The notes under the pieces are model-generated. The model worked only from the letters and a program-made list of their open reading frames with translations, did no database searches and was not told where the DNA came from. This document shows, one piece after another, positions 37,482-45,212 of a stretch of 48,509 nucleotides of DNA. Positions within the stretch are counted from its first letter, which is position 1. Each line of letters starts with the position of its first letter. The stretch comes from Oscillospiraceae bacterium (GTDB lineage Bacteria; Bacillota; Clostridia; Oscillospirales; Oscillospiraceae): assembly GCA_017436035.1 (NCBI GenBank), contig JAFSDV010000036.1:1-48509 (forward strand). The letters are read 5' to 3'. A program made the position numbers and the translations under genes.

Positions 37482-38123
37482 GTGGAAATCAAAAGAACGG
37501 CAAATGCAGGTGTACTGCTGAAAATGGATGGCAAACGGATTTTGATGGACGGTTTGAGCCAAGAGGTCAAGCCTTATTTGGCAACGCCCCGGCATATTCG
37601 GGAAGCACTGCTGAAGGAGCTTCCTGACGCCCTGCTGTTTACCCATTGCCATGAAGACCATTACGATGCCACTTTTGTTTCCGAATATCTGCAAATGGCC
37701 GCAGGTCCCATATTGGGACCTGCGGATATTCCCTTTTGCAGCCAAATGAAGCAAAAGATTGGTGAAATATGTGTTACACCGATTCCCAGCCGGCATGTAG
37801 GAAAATATGACCAGATCGGGCATGTCAGCTTTGTCCTTGAGGGGTCACAGTGTGTATGGTTTATGGGTGATGCTTCTCCGCTTCAGTGGGGAAAGCAGAC
37901 CGAACTGCCAAAGCCGGATGTGCTGGTTGCGCCGTATGCTTACGGCGTGGGTAATGGATGGAATGTTGTGAAGGGGCTTGGTGCAAAGAAGCTGGTGCTG
38001 CTGCACCTTCCTGCACGAAATGCAGATCCGTTTGGGCTCTGGGATGCCATAGAGTCCTCGCTGGATCAAAAAGGGGATGTGGAGCTTTATATTCCGGACA
38101 TGAACGAAACGGTGAATATTTAA
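37482..38123 (+). CDS. Metallo-beta-lactamase-fold hydrolase
   Basis: This 213-residue MBL-fold protein opens VEIKRTANAGVLLKMDGKRILMDG. It has the metal motif HCHEDHYD (HxHxDH) near residue 55, a further His in PSRHVGKYDQIGHVSF, the Asp of WFMGDASPL, and a late His in LLHLPAR. The reaction is unknown; UlaG-like and nuclease-like relatives share this pattern. The start is taken as GTG at 37482, because upstream codons in the same frame lie inside the E1 gene; the ribosome site is weak (AAGGA about 16 bases away). An ATG at 37524 is an alternative. It is the last gene of the E2-E3-E1 operon by position. Confidence 0.78.
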   Translation: MEIKRTANAGVLLKMDGKRILMDGLSQEVKPYLATPRHIREALLKELPDALLFTHCHEDHYDATFVSEYLQMAAGPILGPADIPFCSQMKQKIGEICVTPIPSRHVGKYDQIGHVSFVLEGSQCVWFMGDASPLQWGKQTELPKPDVLVAPYAYGVGNGWNVVKGLGAKKLVLLHLPARNADPFGLWDAIESSLDQKGDVELYIPDMNETVNI

Positions 38124-38185
38124 GCAAAATGGACAAGTTTACCAAAAACAACTAAATCTTTATCAAAACAGACACAAATTCATGC

Positions 38186-38213
38186 TTGACAAATCCTGAA
38201 AATATGCTAAGAT
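38186..38213 (+). promoter_or_regulatory. nagB promoter
   Basis: TTGACA, 16 bases, TAAGAT preceded by TGC (extended -10). Confidence 0.75.
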
Positions 38214-38245
38214 TTTTATATACCAAATTATTGGAGGGTGTTAAC

Positions 38246-38977
38246 ATGATTCATGTACGCGTTATGAAAGCTAAGAATCCTGAGGAGATGGGCAAGCTGG
38301 CAGCTGACCAGTTTGAAGCGATGATTCAAACAAAGCCTGCCTGCGTCATCGGTCTTGCCACCGGTTCTACACCCCTGCCTCTGTACCGTGAGCTGATCAA
38401 ACGGGAACAGGAAGGGAAGATCGACTTCAGCAGAGTGCGCTCCGCAAATTTGGACGAGTATAAGGGCTTGGGACCGGACCATCCCCAAAGCTACCGTAAG
38501 TTTATGCAGGAAAACCTCTTTGACCACATTTCCATCAAGCCGGAGAACACTATTGTTCCCGATGGCTTGGCAGAGGATGTTCAGCAGATGTGTGCGGCCT
38601 ATGAGCAGAAGATTGAGGAGTGGGGCGGGGTAGACCTGCAGCTTCTGGGTATCGGTCACGACGGCCACATCGGCTTTAATGAGCCGGAGGACTATTTCCC
38701 CGGTATGACCCATGAGGTCCAGCTGACTGAAATGACCATTGATGCCAATAAGCGGTTCTTTGATTCTGTAGACGATGTACCGAGAGCGGCATTCACCATG
38801 GGCATCGGAACAATCATGGCTGCAAAGAAGATCGTTATGGTCGTTACCGGCGCAGACAAGAAGGAGATCCTGCACAAGACCTTCTGGGGTCCTGTCGATC
38901 CTCAGGTTCCGGCTTCCATTCTGCAGTTCCATCAGGATGTAACCCTGATCTGTGATGAGGCGGCGTATCCGCTGTAA
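38246..38977 (+). CDS. nagB: Glucosamine-6-phosphate deaminase
   Basis: This 243-residue enzyme converts glucosamine-6-phosphate to fructose-6-phosphate and ammonia in amino-sugar use. It has VIGLATGSTPLPLYRELI, SANLDEYKGLGPDHPQSYRKFM (catalytic Asp region), LLGIGHDGHIGFNEP and the FTMGIGTIMAAKKIVMVVTG motif. Length is normal for the short bacterial form. The ATG at 38246 has GGAGGG six bases upstream; an upstream in-frame ATG at 38186 lies in the promoter. NagA and a dedicated transporter are not adjacent. It ends at a strong terminator before the tRNA pair. Confidence 0.96.
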   Translation: MIHVRVMKAKNPEEMGKLAADQFEAMIQTKPACVIGLATGSTPLPLYRELIKREQEGKIDFSRVRSANLDEYKGLGPDHPQSYRKFMQENLFDHISIKPENTIVPDGLAEDVQQMCAAYEQKIEEWGGVDLQLLGIGHDGHIGFNEPEDYFPGMTHEVQLTEMTIDANKRFFDSVDDVPRAAFTMGIGTIMAAKKIVMVVTGADKKEILHKTFWGPVDPQVPASILQFHQDVTLICDEAAYPL

Positions 38978-38988
38978 TCGTGTTTTTC

Positions 38989-39024
38989 GGGCGCACTGTG
39001 CATAGCAGTGCGCCCTATATTTTT
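38989..39024 (+). terminator. nagB terminator
   Basis: GGGCGCACTG/CAGTGCGCCC around seven bases, followed by TATATTTTT. Confidence 0.9.
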
Positions 39025-39060
39025 AGAATAAAGCTTTTATAAAAAATATAGAAAAAAGGC

Positions 39061-39089
39061 TTGACAAACGGTACTGCCGTGGCTATAAT
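39061..39089 (+). promoter_or_regulatory. tRNA promoter
   Basis: Perfect consensus TTGACA, 17 bases, TATAAT, 22 bases before tRNA-Thr. Confidence 0.93.
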
Positions 39090-39110
39090 AAGCGTGTTCT
39101 GTTTTGAGCC

Positions 39111-39186
39111 GCCGGTATAGCTCAGTTGGTAGAGCAACTGATTTGTAATCAGTAGGTCGGGGGTTCGAGTCCGTCTACCGGCTCCA
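39111..39186 (+). tRNA. tRNA-Thr (anticodon TGT)
   Basis: A 76-base cloverleaf: acceptor GCCGGTA/TACCGGC, D arm with AGCTCAGTTGGTAGAGC, anticodon stem CTGAT/ATCAG with loop TTTGTAA, T arm GGGGGTTCGAGTCC, discriminator T, encoded CCA. Confidence 0.97.
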
Positions 39187-39208
39187 AGCAGACGGTAGAA
39201 TTGAATAT

Positions 39209-39293
39209 GGGGGATTTCCCGAGTGGCCAAAGGGGACAGACTGTAAATCTGCTGGCTATGCCTTCGGTGGTTCGAATCCACCATCCCCCACCA
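39209..39293 (+). tRNA. tRNA-Tyr (anticodon GTA)
   Basis: An 85-base class II tRNA: acceptor GGGGGAT/ATCCCCC, anticodon stem CAGA/TCTG with loop CTGTAAA, long variable arm, T arm GGTGGTTCGAATCCACC, discriminator A, encoded CCA at 39291-39293. It is co-transcribed with tRNA-Thr. Its final CCA is also the first three bases of the repeat element that follows. Confidence 0.97.
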
Positions 39294-39414
39294 AAAATCC
39301 TCGTACGAAAGTACGGGGATTTTTACTTTTTCACTATTACCTTTTCACTCTTCACTTTTCTCTTATCTACGAGGATTTTTGGAAGGTAATAAGTAATAGT
39401 GAATAGTGAAGAAG
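39291..39414 (+). repeat. Alternative-pairing repeat element, copy 1
   Basis: The order is X (39291-39306, CCAAAAATCCTCGTAC), its near partner X' (39311-39324, GTACGGGGATTTTT), a TTCAC-rich tract Y (39325-39360), a second partner X'' (39368-39382, TACGAGGATTTTTGG, exact complement of the first 15 bases of X), and Y' (39383-39414, with AGTAATAGTGAATAGTGAAG) complementary to parts of Y. X can pair with either X' or X''. Copies 2 and 3 share Y and Y' but have unrelated X families. It begins at the CCA of tRNA-Tyr. The 39294-39702 gap holds this, an inverted tRNA-like module, a terminator and the ECF promoter. Confidence 0.8.
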
Positions 39415-39448
39415 TAAAATACGCCAACGGCACAATATCACTAAAATC

Positions 39449-39502
39449 TCCGTCAAGGTGGATTCGAACCACCAAAGTAAAAATAATGGGCAGATTTAGT
39501 GA
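39449..39502 (-). repeat. Degenerate inverted tRNA-like module, copy 1
   Basis: On the minus strand this reads TAAATCTGCCC, then GGTGGTTCGAATCCACC, the same T arm as tRNA-Tyr and a similar anticodon-stem edge (TAAATCTGC), with a degenerate variable arm and no 5' half. It looks like a tRNA 3'-half remnant in reverse orientation. A related copy lies at 41611-41665. Confidence 0.65.
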
Positions 39503-39560
39503 TTTATGATTGCTATTTCGCTCCGTCGGTCGCTGTTATCGTTGGCAACAAATTGTTCTC

Positions 39561-39607
39561 ATAATATGAAAGGGCATCACGCGGTGGTGCCCTTTCATAT
39601 TATTTTG
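39561..39607. terminator. 20-bp hairpin
   Basis: The arms 39561-39580 and 39584-39603 pair over 20 bp with one G-T, loop GCG, then TTTTG. It isolates the ECF operon from the tRNA region. Confidence 0.85.
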
Positions 39608-39612
39608 AAAAA

Positions 39613-39681
39613 TGTTATAATTCAGGTGGGAGTTTTTGCGGAGTCATCCGTTTAATAAGTGAAAGGACATAAAACTTGTAC
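39613..39681 (+). promoter_or_regulatory. Promoter and leader of the ECF sigma operon
   Basis: TGTTATAAT extended -10 (TATAAT 39616-39621), then a leader containing TAATAAGTGAAAGGACA (about 39653-39669) that recurs at 41290-41306. Confidence 0.6.
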
Positions 39682-39702
39682 CTTTCGGGAAGGAGAAAAT
39701 CA

Positions 39703-40260
39703 ATGGATAACGGTGCAAGTAGCTACCGCCGTTTCCTTGATGGTGACGATGGGGGCATTGTTGAGATAATCAAGGATTATAAGGACGGTCTGACTCTATA
39801 TCTTAACGGATATGTAAATAACATTTTTGCTGCCGAAGAATTGATGGAAGAAACCTTCTTTAAGCTTATGATGAAAAAGCCGAGATTCAACGGTAAGTAT
39901 TCTTTCAAAACGTGGCTTTACACCATCGGGCGAAATGTTGCAATCGATTATATACGGCATAATGAAAAGGTTTCTGATACGCCGTTAGAGGATATTGAAA
40001 ATTACCTGTCTGAAGAAGACAGTGTGGAGAGATCCTACCTGCGTGAAGAAAGAAAAATTGCCGTACATAAAGCACTACGCAAACTAAAGGCTGAATACAG
40101 ACAGGTACTATACCTAATTTACTTTGAGGGCTTTAGTAATTCTGAAGCAGCATCCGCAATGAAAAAGAGTAAACATCAACTTGAAAACCTTGTTTATCGA
40201 GCAAGAATGTCGCTCAGATCAGAACTTGACAAGGAGGGCTTTGTTTATGAAGAATTATAA
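39703..40260 (+). CDS. ECF-type RNA polymerase sigma factor
   Basis: This 185-residue sigma-70 factor carries region 2 (about 20-95: YKDGLTLYLNGYVNNIFAAEELMEETFFKLM, then FKTWLYTIGRNVAIDYIR) and region 4 (about 125-180: LKAEYRQVLYLIYFEGFSNSEAASAMKKSKHQLENLVYRARMSL) only. Such factors direct polymerase to stress or envelope genes when released from an anti-sigma. The ATG at 39703 has GGAAGGAG eight bases upstream. It overlaps the next gene by 14 bases. The gene lies in AT-rich accessory DNA. A second copy of its leader sequence without a gene lies at 41237-41325. Confidence 0.92.
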   Translation: MDNGASSYRRFLDGDDGGIVEIIKDYKDGLTLYLNGYVNNIFAAEELMEETFFKLMMKKPRFNGKYSFKTWLYTIGRNVAIDYIRHNEKVSDTPLEDIENYLSEEDSVERSYLREERKIAVHKALRKLKAEYRQVLYLIYFEGFSNSEAASAMKKSKHQLENLVYRARMSLRSELDKEGFVYEEL

Positions 40261-41197
40261 TGAAATTGCAAACGATCTTTTTGAACGCAGAGATAAGTGT
40301 ATTACAGAACAAAAGGCAAGAAGAAAAACTATTACACGCCTAACGACCTCAATCTGTTCTTTTGTGCTCGTGGCTCTTTTGGGCATAGGCGTATGGCAGT
40401 CCGGTTGGCATAACCCTGTAACACCGCCAAACACGGATGATCCGGCAATTAGCGGTGACAGTCAAACATCCAATACTGATAAAACAGTTGGCATCACACC
40501 GGATGCTCCTATTATCTGGGGTGAGTCAAACGGGGAAATTCAGGATATGGGTTATACCACGTGGAATGGAAAAACAATCACCTTGCCTCTGCAAGAAGTG
40601 TTGTCTGATGAAAAGAACAAAAACCGTCTCATTGCCATTGGCGTAGGATTTGAACTTGATAACGAATTCGTTTACAATGGCAGATCAATTGCTGAATATG
40701 ATGCTGAAGCCAATAGAGAGGATTCTGTTCTGAACGGTATGGGTTTATTGCTCAAGACTGGTGACGAATTAAAATATGGAGAAGCATTGTATAAAACAGG
40801 AACTCCCGACGGAAAGAAATGGGCAAAACAGTTATATGATGAAACAGTAGAGCAAATTGGTAAAGATGTGCTGGCGAAATATATTGTCAATGGAGAATTC
40901 TTAAAAGAACAGCTCGAATCCGATATAGCAAATTATACCGCTCACATAATCAGCCGTGAGAACTGGGATAAAGCTATTGAAGCGTATTATGACTATATTG
41001 CCAGTGAAACGTGTAAACACCTAACAGAAAAAGGAGTTAACTGTGAAATAAGAAATGGCTTGACAGTATATATGACCGCCGAAGAATTTGCTACCCTTGA
41101 AATTGACAACGTGCTGTTTTATAGTTTGGCGATAAAAGATAGTGAAGGAATGGATATGTCATCAACTCCAAAAGATGATGTTGTAACTCAATACTGA
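40247..41197 (+). CDS. Putative membrane-bound anti-sigma factor
   Basis: This 316-residue protein has a short basic cytoplasmic N-terminus, a single membrane segment (about 29-51: LTTSICSFVLVALLGIGVWQSGW) and a large external domain. The external domain is acidic, opens with a Pro/Thr/Asp-rich linker and is not recognised. This layout, translational overlap with the ECF sigma gene and the AAGGAGGG site nine bases upstream of the ATG at 40247 make an anti-sigma role likely. No zinc-type HxxxCxxC motif is seen in the cytoplasmic part, so it would be a non-ZAS anti-sigma. What it senses is unknown. Confidence 0.75.
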   Translation: MKNYNEIANDLFERRDKCITEQKARRKTITRLTTSICSFVLVALLGIGVWQSGWHNPVTPPNTDDPAISGDSQTSNTDKTVGITPDAPIIWGESNGEIQDMGYTTWNGKTITLPLQEVLSDEKNKNRLIAIGVGFELDNEFVYNGRSIAEYDAEANREDSVLNGMGLLLKTGDELKYGEALYKTGTPDGKKWAKQLYDETVEQIGKDVLAKYIVNGEFLKEQLESDIANYTAHIISRENWDKAIEAYYDYIASETCKHLTEKGVNCEIRNGLTVYMTAEEFATLEIDNVLFYSLAIKDSEGMDMSSTPKDDVVTQY

Positions 41198-41205
41198 TAG
41201 ACTGG

Positions 41206-41233
41206 AGGCGTCGCAGAAATGCGGCGCCTTTTC
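41206..41233 (+). terminator. Terminator of the sigma/anti-sigma operon
   Basis: GGCGTCGC/GCGGCGCC around AGAAAT, then TTTTC. Confidence 0.8.
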
Positions 41234-41236
41234 AAA

Positions 41237-41325
41237 TGTGGTATAATATTTTTAGAAAATACTGTGAGGTTTTCGCCTCCAATTTCGTGTAATAAGTGAA
41301 AGGGCAAGAAAATCGTATCTCGAGA
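41237..41325 (+). other. Orphan promoter and ECF-like leader without a gene
   Basis: TGTGGTATAAT (41237-41247), a small GAGG/CCTC hairpin, then TAATAAGTGAAAGGGCA (about 41290-41306), matching the ECF sigma leader at 39653. No sigma-like frame follows. It may be the stump of a deleted second sigma operon. The 41198-41695 gap otherwise contains repeat copy 2 and a terminator. Confidence 0.5.
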
Positions 41326-41429
41326 TTGAAATTTCTTTTACTTATAATACTTGCGATAGCGAAGTCTAATTTTTAATAAAAGACGGAATCATAATAAAAA
41401 AGCGCTGATTTTAGCTTTTTTTGAAAAAC

Positions 41430-41576
41430 CAAAGTGGCATCTAAATGGTTCGGAAGAGCCAAAATCGACAATCTTCGACAGAAGGTTGTCGATTTTACTT
41501 TTTCACTCTTCACTTTTCACTATTCTCTACCGTCGATTTTGGCAGAAGTAATAAGTAATAGTGAATAGTGAAGAAG
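41430..41576 (+). repeat. Alternative-pairing repeat element, copy 2
   Basis: A 31-base lead module (41430-41460, CAAAGTGGCATCTAAATGGT start) is shared with copy 3. Then come X (41459-41476, CCAAAATCGACAATCTTC), X' (41481-41496, GAAGGTTGTCGATTTT, one G-U), Y (41497-41527), X'' (41532-41542, GTCGATTTTGG, exact complement of the first 11 bases of X) and Y' (41543-41576, including AGTAATAAGTAATAGTGAA). Confidence 0.8.
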
Positions 41577-41610
41577 TTCGGCGTCTGCTTCGCAGACGAA
41601 ATATAAAACA

Positions 41611-41665
41611 TCCGTCAATATAGATCCGAACGACCGAAACAGAATAAAATGGGCAGATTTAGCAA
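41611..41665 (-). repeat. Degenerate inverted tRNA-like module, copy 2
   Basis: It is related to 39449-39502 over its whole length (shared TCCGTCAA, GATCCGAAC in place of GATTCGAAC, AATGGGCAGATTTAG) but more eroded in the T arm. The order relative to the repeat element is the same as in copy 1. Confidence 0.6.
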
Positions 41666-41689
41666 TTACTTTGCCAAGTCTGCCCATTA
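41648..41689 (-). terminator. Terminator of the membrane-protein operon
   Basis: On the minus strand ATGGGCAGA and TCTGCCCAT pair, with an inner GCAA/TTGC, followed by TTTATTC. It lies a few bases after the stop at 41696. Half of it is formed by the tRNA-like module. Confidence 0.75.
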
Positions 41690-41695
41690 TGCTAT

Positions 41696-42511
41696 CTATT
41701 TTTTCTTTTTTAATCTTGCCTTTGCTTCCTCTATAGTTTCACCGTCCTTGGTGAGATAAGTATCTACAAACTTATCTTCGATGTTGGTGTAACCACCAAC
41801 AATACCTTGCTCTATTTTCTTGTAGCCGTCAACTACACCCTTTTCAATTATTTTGTAACCGCCGGTTACTGCTTTTGCAGTTTTGTCAATTGTTTTAACA
41901 ATCTTAGATTTTGCCATATCGATTCTTTTTCCTCCAATCAAATTGATTCCGAGAAACAGAACGGTAATCCAAACCGCTGTCCCTGTTAAAATGTTGAGCA
42001 GCTGAATTTCTTTCGGATTCATCCCCGGAAATGACACAAGCATCGATCTTTGCATTGTGTAGATGGAAACACACGCATCTGCTAATGATATGTTGCGAAG
42101 TGTCTTTAGCACAGGTGAGACGGATTGCTTTGCCTTTACCATACCCATAATCGCTATTGTGATTTTGCTGAATGTGTAGGTTGCAATGGCAATCATAATG
42201 ATTTCGTGGAAGGCTGTACCACGTTCTTTTATAGCAGATAAAATGTTCACACCTACTATGCAGGAAGAAAGTACAACCAATAAAATTCCCGTAATGCGCC
42301 GTGCAAAAAGCTCGGTATCATAATTGCCCATTGCTTTACGTTTAACCTGCAACACAGAAAACCTTGTAATTGCAAGTACGGTATAATACGCACCTACTGT
42401 AATAAACCACCACGAATGTATAAGAAAACCTATAATACAGTTGCCGAATGCATAAGCAGCGTTCAATACAAGGCTTGTATAAGGGCTTCTTACAAGATTT
42501 AATGCTTTCAT
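41696..42511 (-). CDS. Membrane protein with an 11-residue-repeat amphipathic tail
   Basis: This 271-residue protein has about six hydrophobic segments in the first 210 residues (for example IIGFLIHSWWFITVGAYYTV and ITGILLVVLSSCIVGVNIL). The tail has an 11-residue periodicity: GYKIIEKGVVD, GYKKIEQGIVG, GYTNIEDKFVD, then TYLTKDGETIEEAKARLKKKK. The tail should form a long amphipathic helix. The related ending GYKKIEDKFVDxYL is something I recall from other gut Firmicutes proteins, function unknown. The ATG overlaps the stop of the upstream small membrane protein (ATGA). Transcription is probably controlled by the divergent TetR protein, so a transport or envelope role is possible but unproven. 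Confidence 0.75.
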   Translation of the reverse strand: MKALNLVRSPYTSLVLNAAYAFGNCIIGFLIHSWWFITVGAYYTVLAITRFSVLQVKRKAMGNYDTELFARRITGILLVVLSSCIVGVNILSAIKERGTAFHEIIMIAIATYTFSKITIAIMGMVKAKQSVSPVLKTLRNISLADACVSIYTMQRSMLVSFPGMNPKEIQLLNILTGTAVWITVLFLGINLIGGKRIDMAKSKIVKTIDKTAKAVTGGYKIIEKGVVDGYKKIEQGIVGGYTNIEDKFVDTYLTKDGETIEEAKARLKKKK

Positions 42512-42876
42512 TTGATGCCTTTGATCATTGGAATGAGCGCAATCAGCATAATGATTCCAAGCAGACCGACGAGTGTGCCCCAAATGATTTGTTGCCATAC
42601 AAGGCACATACACATACCTACGCCAAGCACCAAAGCGGCAATGACGGCGTAAATAGTACGGAACAGATTTTTACCGCTCATTTTTGGCAATTTCTTGTTT
42701 TCCATCTTGCACCAAACGAGTGCAGTGATGATACCTAAAACAATACCAATACCGCCAAAGACGATACCTTCCGTAAGTGCGTTCCATTCCGGTAAGAGAG
42801 CCATACACATACCAAGTGCGAAAAGAACACCACTCACAGTTCCCATAATGAGCGCAACAAAACTACTCTTTTTCAT
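42508..42876 (-). CDS. Small four-segment membrane protein
   Basis: This 122-residue protein has four hydrophobic segments (about 5-27, 33-54, 72-94 and 97-118), the signature MGTVSGVLFALGMCMALLPEWNALTEG, and a mirrored VLGVGMCMCLVWQQIIWG. The two halves resemble each other, suggesting an internal duplication. The ATG at 42876 has AAAGGAG nine bases upstream; an ATG six codons earlier lacks one. It is the first gene of a two-gene unit divergent from tetR. No named function. Confidence 0.8.
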   Translation of the reverse strand: MKKSSFVALIMGTVSGVLFALGMCMALLPEWNALTEGIVFGGIGIVLGIITALVWCKMENKKLPKMSGKNLFRTIYAVIAALVLGVGMCMCLVWQQIIWGTLVGLLGIIMLIALIPMIKGIK

Positions 42877-42898
42877 CTGAAAATCTCCTTTCATTAAA

Positions 42899-43028
42899 CC
42901 AACACTTGTGTTTCTATTGCATTTATAGTATAATAGCTTTATTAAAGCAAAACAACCAACATTTAATCAACAGTTGTTGGAATAAAAGAAAATGCGACCA
43001 TCAGTTTGGGCGCAAGTGTTGGTATAAT
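42899..43028. promoter_or_regulatory. TetR-type intergenic control region with repeated CCAACA boxes
   Basis: The minus-strand promoter is TTGTTT (42950-42955), 17 bases, TATACT (42927-42932). CCAACACTTG (42899-42908) and its exact inverse CAAGTGTTGG (43013-43022) stand at the two ends. CCAACA (42956-42961) and TGTTGG (42975-42980) form a second pair, the first abutting the -35. The tetR -10 TATAAT is at 43023-43028, directly after one box. Confidence 0.7.
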
Positions 43029-43039
43029 GGAGAATTATT

Positions 43040-43558
43040 ATGAACATAAAGAACAATAAGCGGCGCAGAGAGTCGCAAGAGAAAATCGAACGGGCGTTTA
43101 TAGAACTGTTGCAAACCTATGAAATTAAGGACATCACCGTTTCAGATCTTATTAAAATGACGGAATTGAATCGTAGTACCTTCTATGCAAACTACATTGA
43201 TATATTCGATCTTGCCGATAAAATGAGAGAAAAACTCGAAAATGATTTCAGTAAGCTGTTTGCTGATTATGATTATTTTAATGAACGTGGTGGCGCACTT
43301 AAGATGTTTACACATATCAAGGAAAATCAAATTTTCTATAAAACATATTTCAAACTGTGTTATGACGACAAACACCTCGTTTCAATATATGATACAAGGC
43401 GAGCTGAACAAGAACATATTGATAGTAACATCAAATATCATATTGAATTTTTTAGAAACGGTCTAAATGCCATTATTAAGTTATGGCTTGCGAACGGCTG
43501 TCAGGAATCTCCCAAGGAAATGGCAGAGGTTCTAAAACAGGAATATAGAGGCAGATAA
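43040..43558 (+). CDS. TetR/AcrR-family transcriptional regulator
   Basis: This 172-residue regulator has an N-terminal helix-turn-helix (about 8-58: SQEKIERAFIELLQTYEIKDITVSDLIKMTELNRSTFYANYIDIFDLADKM). Its short C-terminal ligand domain resembles the TetR_C group of Firmicutes (FKLCYDDKHLVSIYD, YHIEFFRNGLNAIIKLWLANGC). It likely represses the divergent membrane-protein pair and itself through the CCAACA boxes. The -10 lies only about 11 bases before the ATG, so the message may have almost no leader although GGAG sits in that gap. The ligand is unknown. Confidence 0.92.
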   Translation: MNIKNNKRRRESQEKIERAFIELLQTYEIKDITVSDLIKMTELNRSTFYANYIDIFDLADKMREKLENDFSKLFADYDYFNERGGALKMFTHIKENQIFYKTYFKLCYDDKHLVSIYDTRRAEQEHIDSNIKYHIEFFRNGLNAIIKLWLANGCQESPKEMAEVLKQEYRGR

Positions 43559-43567
43559 ATGTTAAAT

Positions 43568-43719
43568 CAAAGTGGCATCTAAACAGTTCGTAACAGCCAA
43601 AAGTTCTGAATGCGAAAGCGTTCAGGACTTTTGCTTTTTACCTCTTACTTCTTCACTATTCACTTTTCACTAAAAACGCATTCAGGACTTTTGGGAAGTA
43701 ATAAGTAATAGTGAAGAAG
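43568..43719 (+). repeat. Alternative-pairing repeat element, copy 3
   Basis: The lead module 43568-43598 matches copy 2 at 27 of 31 bases. X is 43597-43614 (CCAAAAGTTCTGAATGCG), X' 43619-43633 (CGTTCAGGACTTTTG), Y 43634-43671, X'' 43677-43694 (CGCATTCAGGACTTTTGG, complement of X with one G-U), and Y' 43695-43719. It lies just after the tetR stop. No tRNA-like module follows it. Confidence 0.8.
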
Positions 43720-43727
43720 CATATTTT

Positions 43728-43750
43728 GCAAGGCTTTGCCTTGCTTTTTT
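43728..43750 (+). terminator. Terminator after tetR and repeat copy 3
   Basis: GCAAGGC/GCCTTGC with a TTT loop, then TTTTTT. Confidence 0.85.
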
Positions 43751-43780
43751 ATTTTGGTTAATTTTTCTCAACTAAAATAA

Positions 43781-43815
43781 GCACCCGATGCTTTGATTTG
43801 ATATGCATCGGGTGC
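43781..43815 (-). terminator. Terminator of the small XRE gene
   Basis: GCACCCGATGC/GCATCGGGTGC around 13 bases, T-rich on its minus-strand exit; it abuts the stop codon. Confidence 0.88.
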
Positions 43816-44016
43816 TTATTCTTTTTCAAACCGTATGATATCCTCTGTGCTGCAGTCCAATGCATAGCAAAGGGAATCAAGGGTTTTCGTGCTGATTGCT
43901 TCTCCTTTTTTTATTCGATGAAGCGTATTTGCAGAAAAACCTTGTTTGAAGATCAGATGATATTCAGTTATTCCTTTTTTGAAAAGGGTCTCATAAAAGG
44001 GCTTGTAGCTGATCAT
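43816..44016 (-). CDS. Small XRE-family helix-turn-helix regulator
   Basis: This 66-residue single-domain Cro/C1-type regulator reads MISYKPFYETLFKKGITEYHLIFKQGFSANTLHRIKKGEAISTKTLDSLCYALDCSTEDII. The helix-turn-helix spans about 18-55. The ATG at 44016 follows GGTGAT by four bases; in-frame ATGs two and four codons upstream are possible starts. It is divergent from the acyltransferase gene, with both promoters sharing one perfect palindrome, so it probably represses that gene and itself. Confidence 0.85.
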   Translation of the reverse strand: MISYKPFYETLFKKGITEYHLIFKQGFSANTLHRIKKGEAISTKTLDSLCYALDCSTEDIIRFEKE

Positions 44017-44037
44017 GTTCATCACCAATGATATACT

Positions 44038-44081
44038 AGCATACTTAATTGCTTGACTATACTCAACAAATTGAGTATAAT
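44038..44081. promoter_or_regulatory. Overlapping divergent promoters with a shared 9-4-9 palindrome
   Basis: Plus strand: TTGACT (44053-44058), 17 bases, TATAAT (44076-44081). Minus strand: TTGAGT, 17 bases, TATGCT (44038-44066). TATACTCAA (44058-44066), CAAA and TTGAGTATA (44071-44079) form a perfect palindrome lying inside both promoters. Confidence 0.82.
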
Positions 44082-44111
44082 GAATATCAATTTGTTGGAG
44101 GTGAAGAAGTT

Positions 44112-45212
44112 ATGATACAGCCGATTAAAGGTGTTGCTGCGGAAGAGTCCTTATCTCAGGGGGAGAAAAGAGTCGCTTGGGTCGATGTTATGCGGGCGGT
44201 TATGATGTTCGCGATTGCATTGGGGCACGCGCTTGATGCGCGGCCGACCAGTGGCAGTATGCTCAACCAATACGTTTATTCTTTTCATGTTCCGGCGTTC
44301 TTTTTTCTCTCCGGTCTTTTATTTAGGGGCAAAAAAGAATCCTTTTTTGCGTTTACAGTTAAGAAATTCAAATCACTGATGATCCCGTACTATATTTTTT
44401 CGATTCTCAGCATTCTGATTTTTCTGGTTTTAGGCAGCGTGGCATCGGATGGCTTGGGTGTGGCTGTAAAAACTACCGATTTGCTGCCAAATCTGTGGGG
44501 TATGCTGTATGGAAACGGAAGCACAGGTTATATGAAGTGGAACTTGCCGTTGTGGTTTGTTCCTTGTTTGTTTATAACCTCACTGATATTCTACTGGATT
44601 GATCGTGTTGTATTGGCTGACGGGAAAAGGAACAGTCGTAAGTTTATCGGTATGATGGTTGGTTCTTTGGCTTTGTCATTTTTGAATTATTACGTATTAG
44701 GGATTCAGAAGCTGCCCTTTGGGCTTGAAACGGCAGTTTATATGCTTCCGTTTTTTGTGGTAGGGTATTGGACCGGCAGAACGGATATGCTTTCAAAGTT
44801 ACAATCCGGGGTTAGATACGGGTTGGGAGCGGCATTTGTAATTGCCGGGGCAATATTGGCGTTTGTCAATGGACCGCGTGTGGGTTATGTTGGCTCAGCA
44901 TACAATAACCTGGCTGTTTACTATAGTTCTGCAATGTTGTCTACGGCAGGGGCTGTGATGCTTTTACAGACTGCTTCAAATAAGCTTCTTATATATGTTG
45001 GAAGAAATACGCTTCCCATATTGCTTATGCATAAGTTCCCAATCGTATTTTTCCAGATGTTTTTAGTTGATACGATGGCAAAAAATGAGTTGCTTGGTGT
45101 GTCTATCGCAATTGTTATAGCTGGGGCGTCTTGTGCTATGGCACTTTTAGCAGGCGAAGTGATCAGACGGATTGCGCCGTTTGCATTGGGAAGAGTAAGA
45201 AAACAGAATTAA
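44112..45212 (+). CDS. Acyltransferase 3 family membrane protein
   Basis: This 366-residue protein has about ten membrane segments and the AT3 signature: RVAWVDVMRAVMMFAIALGHA (conserved His), YVYSFHVPAFFFLSGLLF, an FKSLMIPYYIFSI segment and LPLWFVPCLF. AT3 proteins move acyl groups, usually acetyl, onto cell-surface sugars or peptidoglycan. No extra SGNH domain is fused. The ATG at 44112 follows GGAGGTGAAG by a few bases; the upstream in-frame start lies in the promoter. Regulation by the adjacent small XRE protein is likely. The natural acceptor is not known. Confidence 0.92.
   Translation: MIQPIKGVAAEESLSQGEKRVAWVDVMRAVMMFAIALGHALDARPTSGSMLNQYVYSFHVPAFFFLSGLLFRGKKESFFAFTVKKFKSLMIPYYIFSILSILIFLVLGSVASDGLGVAVKTTDLLPNLWGMLYGNGSTGYMKWNLPLWFVPCLFITSLIFYWIDRVVLADGKRNSRKFIGMMVGSLALSFLNYYVLGIQKLPFGLETAVYMLPFFVVGYWTGRTDMLSKLQSGVRYGLGAAFVIAGAILAFVNGPRVGYVGSAYNNLAVYYSSAMLSTAGAVMLLQTASNKLLIYVGRNTLPILLMHKFPIVFFQMFLVDTMAKNELLGVSIAIVIAGASCAMALLAGEVIRRIAPFALGRVRKQN

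Follow-up and report, generated by a model that had tools for sequence, protein, structure and literature searches.

The window analysed here is a stretch of 48,509 nucleotides from an Oscillospiraceae bacterium (GCA_017436035.1, contig JAFSDV010000036.1), in which three copies of a structured block separate two gene cassettes. Each block is made of five segments in the order X, X', Y, X'', Y'. An earlier reading of the letters alone (the sequence-only reading) had proposed this order, which is borne out in copies 1, 2 and 3, and its coordinates for the copies were off by a few bases at most. The features are as follows.

39209..39293, plus strand: tRNA-Tyr gene (ARAGORN; Rfam tRNA), its CCA end being the left edge of copy 1
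39291..39306, plus strand: copy 1 X, the tRNA CCA end and the 5' arm of the predicted terminator hairpin
39311..39324, plus strand: copy 1 X', the 3' arm of the predicted terminator hairpin, then a T-rich stretch
39325..39366, plus strand: copy 1 Y, a heptad-like TTCACTN stretch
39368..39382, plus strand: copy 1 X'', a 15-base reverse complement of CC plus X
39383..39415, plus strand: copy 1 Y', complement of Y and right arm of the second hairpin
39294..41461, plus strand: cassette 1, from the tRNA-Tyr CCA to the next CCA (inferred edges)
39457..39477, plus strand: T-arm of tRNA-Tyr in inverted copy, close to the left end of cassette 1 (inverted-repeat pair I5)
39703-40260: cassette 1, sigma-70-family, ECF-like factor
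40250-41197: cassette 1, 315-aa protein with no Pfam match
41431..41461, plus strand: tRNA-like 3' end of cassette 1, terminating in CCA (repeat family D3)
41459..41476, plus strand: copy 2 X
41481..41496, plus strand: copy 2 X'
41497..41531, plus strand: copy 2 Y
41532..41542, plus strand: copy 2 X'' (11 bases)
41543..41577, plus strand: copy 2 spacer and Y', beginning with C; in this copy a G precedes the CCA
41462..43599, plus strand: cassette 2 (inferred edges)
41696-42613, minus strand: cassette 2, 305-aa protein with no Pfam match
42508-42894, minus strand: cassette 2, 128-aa protein with no match over the cut-off
43040-43558, plus strand: cassette 2, TetR-type regulator
43569..43599, plus strand: tRNA-like 3' end of cassette 2, terminating in CCA (repeat family D3; a similar end in L234)
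43597..43614, plus strand: copy 3 X
43618..43633, plus strand: copy 3 X'
43634..43676, plus strand: copy 3 Y
43677..43694, plus strand: copy 3 X'' (18 bases)
43695..43719, plus strand: copy 3 Y'

On its left the block begins at a CCA end, which belongs either to a tRNA gene or to the tRNA-like end of a cassette; in copy 1 the CC of X is part of the CCA end of the tRNA-Tyr gene. X and X' form hairpins of 14, 16 and 16 pairs in copies 1, 2 and 3, and these have the form of an intrinsic terminator, a G+C-containing hairpin followed by a T run. Y and Y' are the inverted-repeat arms of a short non-coding body, as in a MITE, and X'' lies in the apical loop region of the predicted Y:Y' fold, both in the window copies and in three examples with other Y alphabets (see below). 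Between X'' and Y' there are 0-5 bases. X'' is an inverted copy of the junction, comprising base 73 in many G73 cases, CC and X, and it measures 11-21 bases at most sites. Together X and X'' resemble attC sites in having inverted complementary arms and a variable middle, and the two strands of the window copies each give a good predicted fold (z from -5.1 to -8.65). Judged from these features and predicted folds, an anatomy of CCA start, terminator-form hairpin and inverted copy in the loop is well supported.

The complementarity of X'' to its own X, as claimed in the sequence-only reading, proved real: the X:X'' runs reach 15 pairs in copy 1, 11 in copy 2 and 18 in copy 3, and none of 2000 dinucleotide shuffles of each downstream stretch reached the observed run (largest chance runs of 11, 9 and 13). 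The Y' motif, with at most 3 mismatches allowed, matches the window five times, always at the three copies, where 0.01 matches are expected. G-U pairs had been described as tolerated in both pairings; this is true of X:X', where most wobble is found, and hardly of X'', which is nearly all Watson-Crick where it is paired.

All copies had also been placed within 4.5 kb, with a middle of X unrelated between them; a wider search shows that the block is not confined to that stretch and that an X sequence is not unique to one copy. A motif scan whose pattern fixed six bases at the end of X'' together with a part of Y' found at least 128 sites beyond the three window copies. The block follows many tRNA genes in gut Clostridia: among the matches listed, 75 of the 128 adjoin the 3' end of a tRNA gene, with 26 isoacceptors represented, and at 73 of these 75 sites the distance from the tRNA end to the TTTTGG that ends X'' is 67-93 bases. 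Many X sequences recur at other tRNA genes and in other species. In the same genome, one X type is found following both tRNA-Leu(tag) and, on a different contig (C22), a tRNA-like end (L010), and a decayed block follows tRNA-Thr(ggt). Of 27 tRNA ends taken from this genome with no use of the Y' motif, four show two inverted copies of the trailer, one near and one far (at 79-88 bases), in two Y alphabets; a third Y alphabet comes from a relative. The three alphabets have a common anatomy, with an X'' that lacks the CC in the second.

Among the best 46 pairs of sites, units identical rightwards of the CCA are found on different tRNAs (L099 on Met and L140 on Cys; L081 on Cys and L139 on Ser), and other pairs diverge at the end of Y' (L067/L068, L043/L070 and L120/L122). 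In L063 two different terminators are followed by an almost identical Y-X''-Y', and one X'' is common to three X sequences in L009, L018 and L027. Palindromes with Y'-like ends occur elsewhere in relatives (L014, L024, L032), and a bare terminator with the X-L-X' of copy 2 stands at a different locus behind tRNA-Ser (L212). The same blocks and intervening cassettes were also seen on different tRNA genes, in different families. Copy 1 had no match in the plasmid collection. In positions 38000-45000 only two tRNAs reach the Rfam gathering score, and no known RNA family was found at the blocks, either there or in an Rfam scan of nine loci. A literature search recognised no described relative of the block, which is weak evidence of absence, as most subscription papers fall outside its coverage.

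The proteins of cassette 2 have counterparts of 73-82% identity in six other families. A tRNA gene is present in 6 of the 14 stretches fetched for these loci and none was seen in the other 8 (3-4 kb fetched); cassette 2 follows the tRNA in L234, L235, L238 and L239. Only L229 and L234 of the 14 carry the Y motif; cassette 2 of L234 closes with a tRNA-like CCA end almost identical to that in the window, and the block behind it has another X. The window's contig gave no Phage_integrase match at 1e-8. Tyrosine recombinases as a whole family (PF00589) are encoded in 7 of 7 genomes searched, none of them on that contig. No clean case of an empty and filled pair at one orthologous locus was found.

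The 128 listed sites and the three of the window make 131, and 123 of these were parsed; the others had fewer than 100 bases upstream or no hairpin (L045). The pairing test covered the 96 sites beginning with C/T-CAAA and left out 27 that have another triplet before the A run (such as ACA), begin with CCAG (two sites) or contain misparsed hairpins. Wobble was counted over 92 distinct rows, and base 73 was tested over 74 and 99 rows. Relatedness among the sites means that these counts are not independent observations. With one site taken for each of the 31 X types among the matches listed, an average of 5.16 out of 7 positions are paired between X'' and its own X, above all 5000 permutations of X'' (mean 2.96, maximum 3.84), and for 26 of the 31 distinct trailer sequences at least one listed site has a loop match of at least 11 bases. 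The earlier claim of sequence change with complementarity kept is therefore real and extends far beyond three copies, to 31 X types among the matches listed; many of these are variants of each other, and one Y/Y' type is common to all. Loss of X:X'' pairing in copies that keep Y and Y', which had been named as the observation that would count against the idea, is seen in a minority: 20 of the 96 sites have a run of 10 or less, near the mean of 8.5 obtained with X'' from another X class. Hybrids with a foreign X'' are present.

Inside the X:X'' run, where all positions are paired by definition, X'' is Watson-Crick with X at 34 of the 38 places at which X' has a wobble or mismatch, and this rules out X'' as a target site duplication of X'. 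Within the same helix (542 positions) wobble occurs at 13 positions for X'' versus 36 for X', a difference that favours DNA over RNA. Across the entire arm, X', whose pairing with X is built in because hairpins were selected by their pairing, has wobble at 103 of 988 positions; at those 103 positions X'' is Watson-Crick at 47, wobble at 13 and mismatched at 43, and over the whole arm it departs from X far more than X' does. The X:X'' match is strongest beside the CC and weaker outwards, the Watson-Crick share of rows being 0.93 at positions 9-10, 0.56 at position 15 and 0.34 at position 16, and it may extend past the arm into the loop (20 bases in L150, 21 in L044). Inversion of the X-X'' site was set aside as a candidate: 119 pattern matches in flipped order also fit an ordinary block on the other strand, as those inspected were, although this leaves its absence unproven.

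Where G precedes the CCA, X'' is followed by C, and 86 of 99 sites among the matches listed agree with this correspondence, versus a mean of 67.6 and a maximum of 80 upon permutation within X class. For A73 the expected T is found at just 1 of 32 sites; the rule thus holds for G73 and not for A73, so that copying or pairing at base 73 is not general. X'' otherwise covers the CC of the unpaired tRNA end and the trailer, and reaches deeper into the acceptor stem at only three tRNA-Ser sites.

The sequence-only reading had taken the kept pairing as a sign of selection on an RNA or single-stranded DNA structure with two exclusive folds, possibly a switch. This interpretation is partly supported: the pairing is kept through sequence change, but two exclusive folds acting as a switch find no support. 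In a model that leaves pseudoknots outside, X:X' plus Y:Y' was the more stable fold in all 13 blocks tested (the three of the window and 10 picked from 120 others), and forcing X:X'' cost 3.2-27.5 kcal/mol as RNA and 0.2-16.7 kcal/mol as DNA, L135 being nearest to parity (3.2 and 0.2 kcal/mol, respectively). The two comparably stable folds of a riboswitch or attenuator are thus not seen. A pseudoknot of simultaneous X:X'' and Y:Y' is unlikely because so few bases link X'' to Y'. Additionally, X'' comes after the terminator, so that in the sense direction it would be transcribed too late to act in anti-termination. By these predicted energies and the order of transcription a switch acting in cis is unlikely, and we rejected it. 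A mobile-element end or a target-addressing device, also raised in that reading, fits better.

It is unusual for small mobile DNA to carry a copy of the site it occupies. Our preferred explanation, held tentatively and at somewhat less than even confidence, is that the block may be the junction, acting as DNA, of small mobile units with a habit of inserting at tRNA 3' ends. The inverted junction copy could serve as an address, leading the hairpin module to a matching tRNA end or letting it recognise one; alternatively, it could be a further core site, in inverted orientation, for cutting and joining units between CCA and A. The terminator arm would keep the tRNA properly ended after insertion, so that the host would be little disturbed. 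In favour of this explanation are the position of listed sites behind tRNA genes at a steady distance, the units common to different tRNAs, the fit of X'' to its own X, the link to the base before CCA and the recurrence of cassette 2 beside tRNA genes. Against mobile units stand the lack of a recombinase or transposase tied to the block (no Phage_integrase match on the window's contig) and of a clean empty and filled pair, the capacity of ordinary homologous recombination to spread blocks, the frequent occurrence of cassette 2 without a block, the failure of the base rule at A73, the departure of X'' from X over the whole arm, and the poor X:X'' match at 20 of the 96 listed and window sites tested. 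A bolder proposal, which we consider unlikely, is that of a self-addressed mobile hairpin: the loop would hold a base-pairing address of one tRNA 3' end (base 73, CC, trailer) and be rewritten from the new host sequence during or after insertion, and rows of blocks would make tRNA ends into landing places for cassettes without a dedicated integron. If X'' is an address, it would represent a new sort of nucleic-acid guide, and a way for gut bacteria to gather genes behind tRNA genes.

The match may instead have no function. Replication slipping between nearby inverted repeats could rewrite X'' from X, and the block would then be a terminator with an adjacent mobile palindrome, in which nature would have recorded template switching between inverted repeats cleanly. 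The few wobble pairs, the fading of the match away from the CC, as expected for copy tracts of variable length, and its extension into the loop in L150 and L044 are all consistent with this. However, X' is closer to X and should be corrected first, yet it retains its 103 wobble pairs; the arrangement persists with similar spacing across three Y alphabets; and random tracts leave unexplained how X'' is tied, mostly as C to G, to the base preceding CCA. We regard template switching as rather improbable.

An action at the RNA level, with the X'' loop antisense to the tRNA 3' end and trailer, or a two-way insulator with long-range pairing in read-through or antisense transcripts, could account for the terminator-like X:X', the folding of both strands and the span of X'' over the tRNA end. 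We consider it unlikely in view of the distance of X:X'' from the best fold in cis, the position of X'' behind the terminator, the rarity of wobble in X:X'' compared with X:X' at the same positions, and the missing CC in the second Y alphabet. X and X'' could also be terminal inverted repeats bound by one DNA-binding protein, with X types as transposon subfamilies; they are indeed inverted and about 80 bases apart, in units common to several tRNAs and species. We hold this to be very unlikely, since 31 X types with one Y/Y' type are many for matched proteins, Y' lies outside the would-be element at every site (though the scan pattern required Y'), X'' relates to the host tRNA base, and foreign-X'' hybrids exist.

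The mobile junction that we favour can be compared with several known systems. Integron attC sites differ in sequence from cassette to cassette yet preserve inverted complementarity around a variable middle, have an R-box consensus and stand at cassette joints. Their extrahelical bases are described in PMC3053210. The block is similar in varying with inverted complementarity kept and in standing at cassette joints. It differs in that the fold predicted as stable does not pair its two junction copies with each other (13 of 13 blocks, with a difference of 0.2 kcal/mol as DNA in L135), its joints lie at the CCA of tRNA genes, each block has a terminator hairpin, and no IntI-type integrase was tied to it in this analysis. 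Bacterial MITEs and REPIN-type palindromes are short, non-coding and palindromic with many related copies, as is the block, whose loop, unlike theirs, is tailored to its neighbour and which prefers tRNA ends. IS200/IS605-type ends use about 4 guide bases, an internal stretch complementary to the flank-element junction; the block has such a stretch, but its match is mostly 11-21 bases and its hairpin is placed differently. Tycheposons are integrative elements that target tRNA 3' ends and have repeated partial tRNA ends. Our units use both, whereas they measure about 0.2-2 kb, start with their own terminator, carry an inverted rather than direct junction copy and, in the two cassettes of the window, lack a recombinase gene. 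Group IIC introns settle behind terminator hairpins, where the block also sits; no group II intron was matched at the blocks of the window region or of the nine loci scanned, and the one match to exceed the gathering score, at 73-137 in L089, is away from the block.

On re-examination of the sequence, the three copies described by the sequence-only reading are present with the claimed layout. Each consists, in the same order, of a terminator-like hairpin (X:X') after CCA, a heptad-like Y, X'', and Y', which is predicted to form a second hairpin with Y. The blocks alternate with two gene cassettes, whose edges are putative:

39209-39293: tRNA-Tyr gene, whose CCA end is the left edge of block copy 1
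39291-39415: block copy 1
39294..41461: cassette 1, a sigma-70-family (ECF-like) gene and its 315-aa partner
41459-41577: block copy 2
41462..43599: cassette 2, a 305-aa protein, a 128-aa protein and a TetR-type regulator
43597-43719: block copy 3

The complementary runs between X and X'', counted from CC, are 15, 11 and 18 bases long in copies 1, 2 and 3, lengths never reached in 2000 shuffles per stretch. Upstream of the sigma-factor gene, at 39561-39603, two 20-base arms separated by 3 bases form a near-perfect inverted repeat.

With up to two mismatches allowed, the motif GTAATAAGTAATAGTGAA occurs at six places in the same genome, whose 36-contig draft assembly is 62% complete: the three window copies, a block behind tRNA-Leu(tag), a decayed block behind tRNA-Thr(ggt), and a place on contig C31, where the match represents no such block. 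A second pattern recovered a further block behind a tRNA-like end on contig C22 (L010; L numbers denote fetched loci of this genome or its relatives), and its X is that of the tRNA-Leu(tag) block. A scan of named genomes returned at least 120 stretches holding at least 128 sites; the 80 whose titles are listed all belong to Clostridia or its members (Oscillospiraceae, Clostridiales, Ruminococcaceae etc.), and many are from the ruminant gut. Within the order, the strict motif was found in 26 of 295 genomes, this one included, and in 24 of 148 genera; a control pattern gave zero matches in any listed genome. Copy number is low, with 1 to 5 strict sites per genome in the 29 genomes known as carriers.

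The block is tied to tRNA ends. A tRNA predicted by ARAGORN precedes 75 of the 128 sites listed, covering 26 isoacceptors, and in 73 of these 75 the distance from the tRNA end to the TTTTGG of X'' is 67-93 bases. Several other sites follow only the 3' part of a tRNA (e.g. L058, L089, L153). Of the parsed sites, 99 have CCA ahead of the A run; ARAGORN reported no tRNA at 26 of them, some of which lie at tRNA-like tails such as CATCTAAACCATTCGGCTCTTCCA, and in a further group ACA replaces CCA.

Within this arrangement, X'' is an inverted copy of the junction, CC plus X. Among 31 distinct X sequences (defined by their first 14 bases, one site each, many being variants of each other), X'' pairs with its own X at 5.16 of the 7 positions that follow the shared start, versus 2.96 when permuted, with a permuted maximum of 3.84 in 5000 trials. 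The proposal that each X'' complements its own X holds beyond permutation for these sequences. At 20 of 96 sites the run is 10 bases or shorter; the match is best adjoining CC and weaker outwards. Wobble pairs make up 13 of 542 in the X:X'' helix, and X' has 36 of 542 at those positions (bootstrap range of the difference in share, 0.022-0.063).

X'' was also considered as a duplicate of the terminator right arm X', and this was rejected because X'' follows X at the telling positions. Inside the X:X'' run, X'' is Watson-Crick with X at 34 of 38 places where X' wobbles or mismatches; across the full arm with its distal part, the 103 X' wobble positions correspond to 47 Watson-Crick pairs, 13 wobbles and 43 mismatches.

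X'' is further linked to base 73, the tRNA base before CCA. C follows X'' at 20 of 25 sites on G73 tRNAs, 3 of 32 on A73 and 0 of 16 on T73. Of the 99 CCA sites, 86 combine either G before CCA with C after X'' or another base before CCA with a non-C. This count exceeds all 5000 permutations within X classes, and the Fisher test value is 9.5e-9 for 82 distinct rows after collapsing, although the sites share kinship and these figures overstate independence. At three tRNA-Ser sites the match is prolonged to CGG.

The block itself is made of interchangeable parts. Among the 46 most similar pairs listed, several diverge exactly left of CCA, with different tRNAs beyond, and several diverge rightwards at the end of Y' or past a following hairpin. 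L063 carries two different terminators, each followed by a nearly identical Y-X''-Y'; one X'' is common to L009, L018 and L027 (two families) beside three different X; and the copy 2 terminator also stands bare behind a tRNA-Ser of this genome (L212). The terminator and second hairpin, matched in most sites, can therefore separate. In this genome tRNA-Cys and tRNA-Leu(taa) are followed by the same layout built on another Y (TTCATTN heptads), and a third alphabet, TTCTCTN, follows a relative's tRNA-Tyr; the three are alike and may be of common descent. Among tRNA ends fetched without the Y' motif, near and far inverted trailer copies occur at 4 of 27 in this genome, the far copy lying 79-88 bases away. 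They also occur at 4 of 25 tRNA-Tyr ends of relatives, where one (L176) is of another kind.

The two exclusive folds proposed earlier as a switch fare poorly in prediction. Compared with shuffles, the predicted folds of the window copies are far better on both strands (z -5.1 to -8.65), and in these copies and three other-alphabet examples the predicted fold is the terminator hairpin followed by a long hairpin tipped by X''. When the best fold was compared with the best X:X''-containing fold in 13 blocks (3 from the window, 10 hand-picked), the latter was costlier in all 13, by 3.2-27.5 kcal/mol as RNA and 0.2-16.7 as DNA, and because of this a cis switch is not a likely use of the block. An RNA role is possible, since X'' spans just the tRNA end and its trailer.

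In the reading we favor, small mobile units would settle at the 3' ends of tRNA genes, with the block as their junction element at the DNA level; a role of X'' as an address or second core site is a tentative proposal, to which we give somewhat less than even weight. In the main rival reading, template switching simply copies neighboring inverted repeats into one another. The A73 tRNAs speak against pairing or copying as a full rule, since the expected T after X'' was seen at 1 of 32 sites. The system closest in working is the integron attC site, whose joint sequence varies while an inverted joint copy is kept (attC features from PMC3053210). Unlike attC, the block has a preferred predicted fold that does not come from the two joint copies, and no integron integrase is shown; for both reasons we do not file it as attC.

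Among the 295 genomes of the order, 110 hold a relative of the 305-aa protein of cassette 2, and in eight genomes belonging to six other families the identity is 73-82%; cassette 1 is rarer (10 of 295, this genome counted in both). Window DNA from 41623 to 43749 matches L234 at 79%; there, cassette 2 lies behind tRNA-Thr and tRNA-Tyr, separated from them by other hairpin sequence. It closes with a tRNA-like CCA end nearly identical to that in the window, and a block with a different X comes next. Fourteen loci of other genomes were fetched by the 305-aa protein, and six contain a tRNA gene: cassette 2 is downstream of it in L234, L235, L238 and L239, in L232 the tRNA gene lies about 440 bases upstream, and in L240 it faces cassette 2 from the opposite side. 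The other eight have no tRNA gene in the 3-4 kb fetched, and among the fourteen the Y motif is present only in L229 and L234. Cassette 2 is thus mobile and frequently settles at tRNA genes, though this block does not accompany it in every case. In L230, L231 and L233-L236 the part of the homolog matched by the 305-aa protein contains one or two TAA codons in frame, which may be terminal stops, decay or assembly errors.

Elsewhere, 23S_rRNA_IVP proteins (PF05635; L043 2457-2804, L089 5517-5870, L076 5013-5354), which are four-helix bundles, are the products of three cassettes or first genes that stand behind the block. A promoter-like stretch, gaaagttgtatagtgaaaaagg or variants, lies directly behind or near Y' in L017, L018, L027, L034, L118 and L151 and is common to genomes of different families. 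On the reverse complement of L089 (1300-1720; genome G048, contig C37), a tyrosine recombinase gene ends just before a block-carrying tRNA 3' remnant, resembling the distal end of an integrated element. Two Gut-1 RNA (RF01706) matches stand behind a tRNA-Tyr gene in L163 (1858-1933 and 1952-2036). A second kind of tRNA-linked element, seen in L058 (3635-3730), L103, L163, L169 and L183, comprises an inverted T-arm (GGATTCGAA...), two or three hairpins, a copy of the neighboring tRNA 3' end with CCA, and another terminator. Palindromes of about 110 bases with Y'-like outer ends (L014, L024, L025, L032, L033) have no tRNA ahead in the flanks inspected and occur in several copies in relatives.
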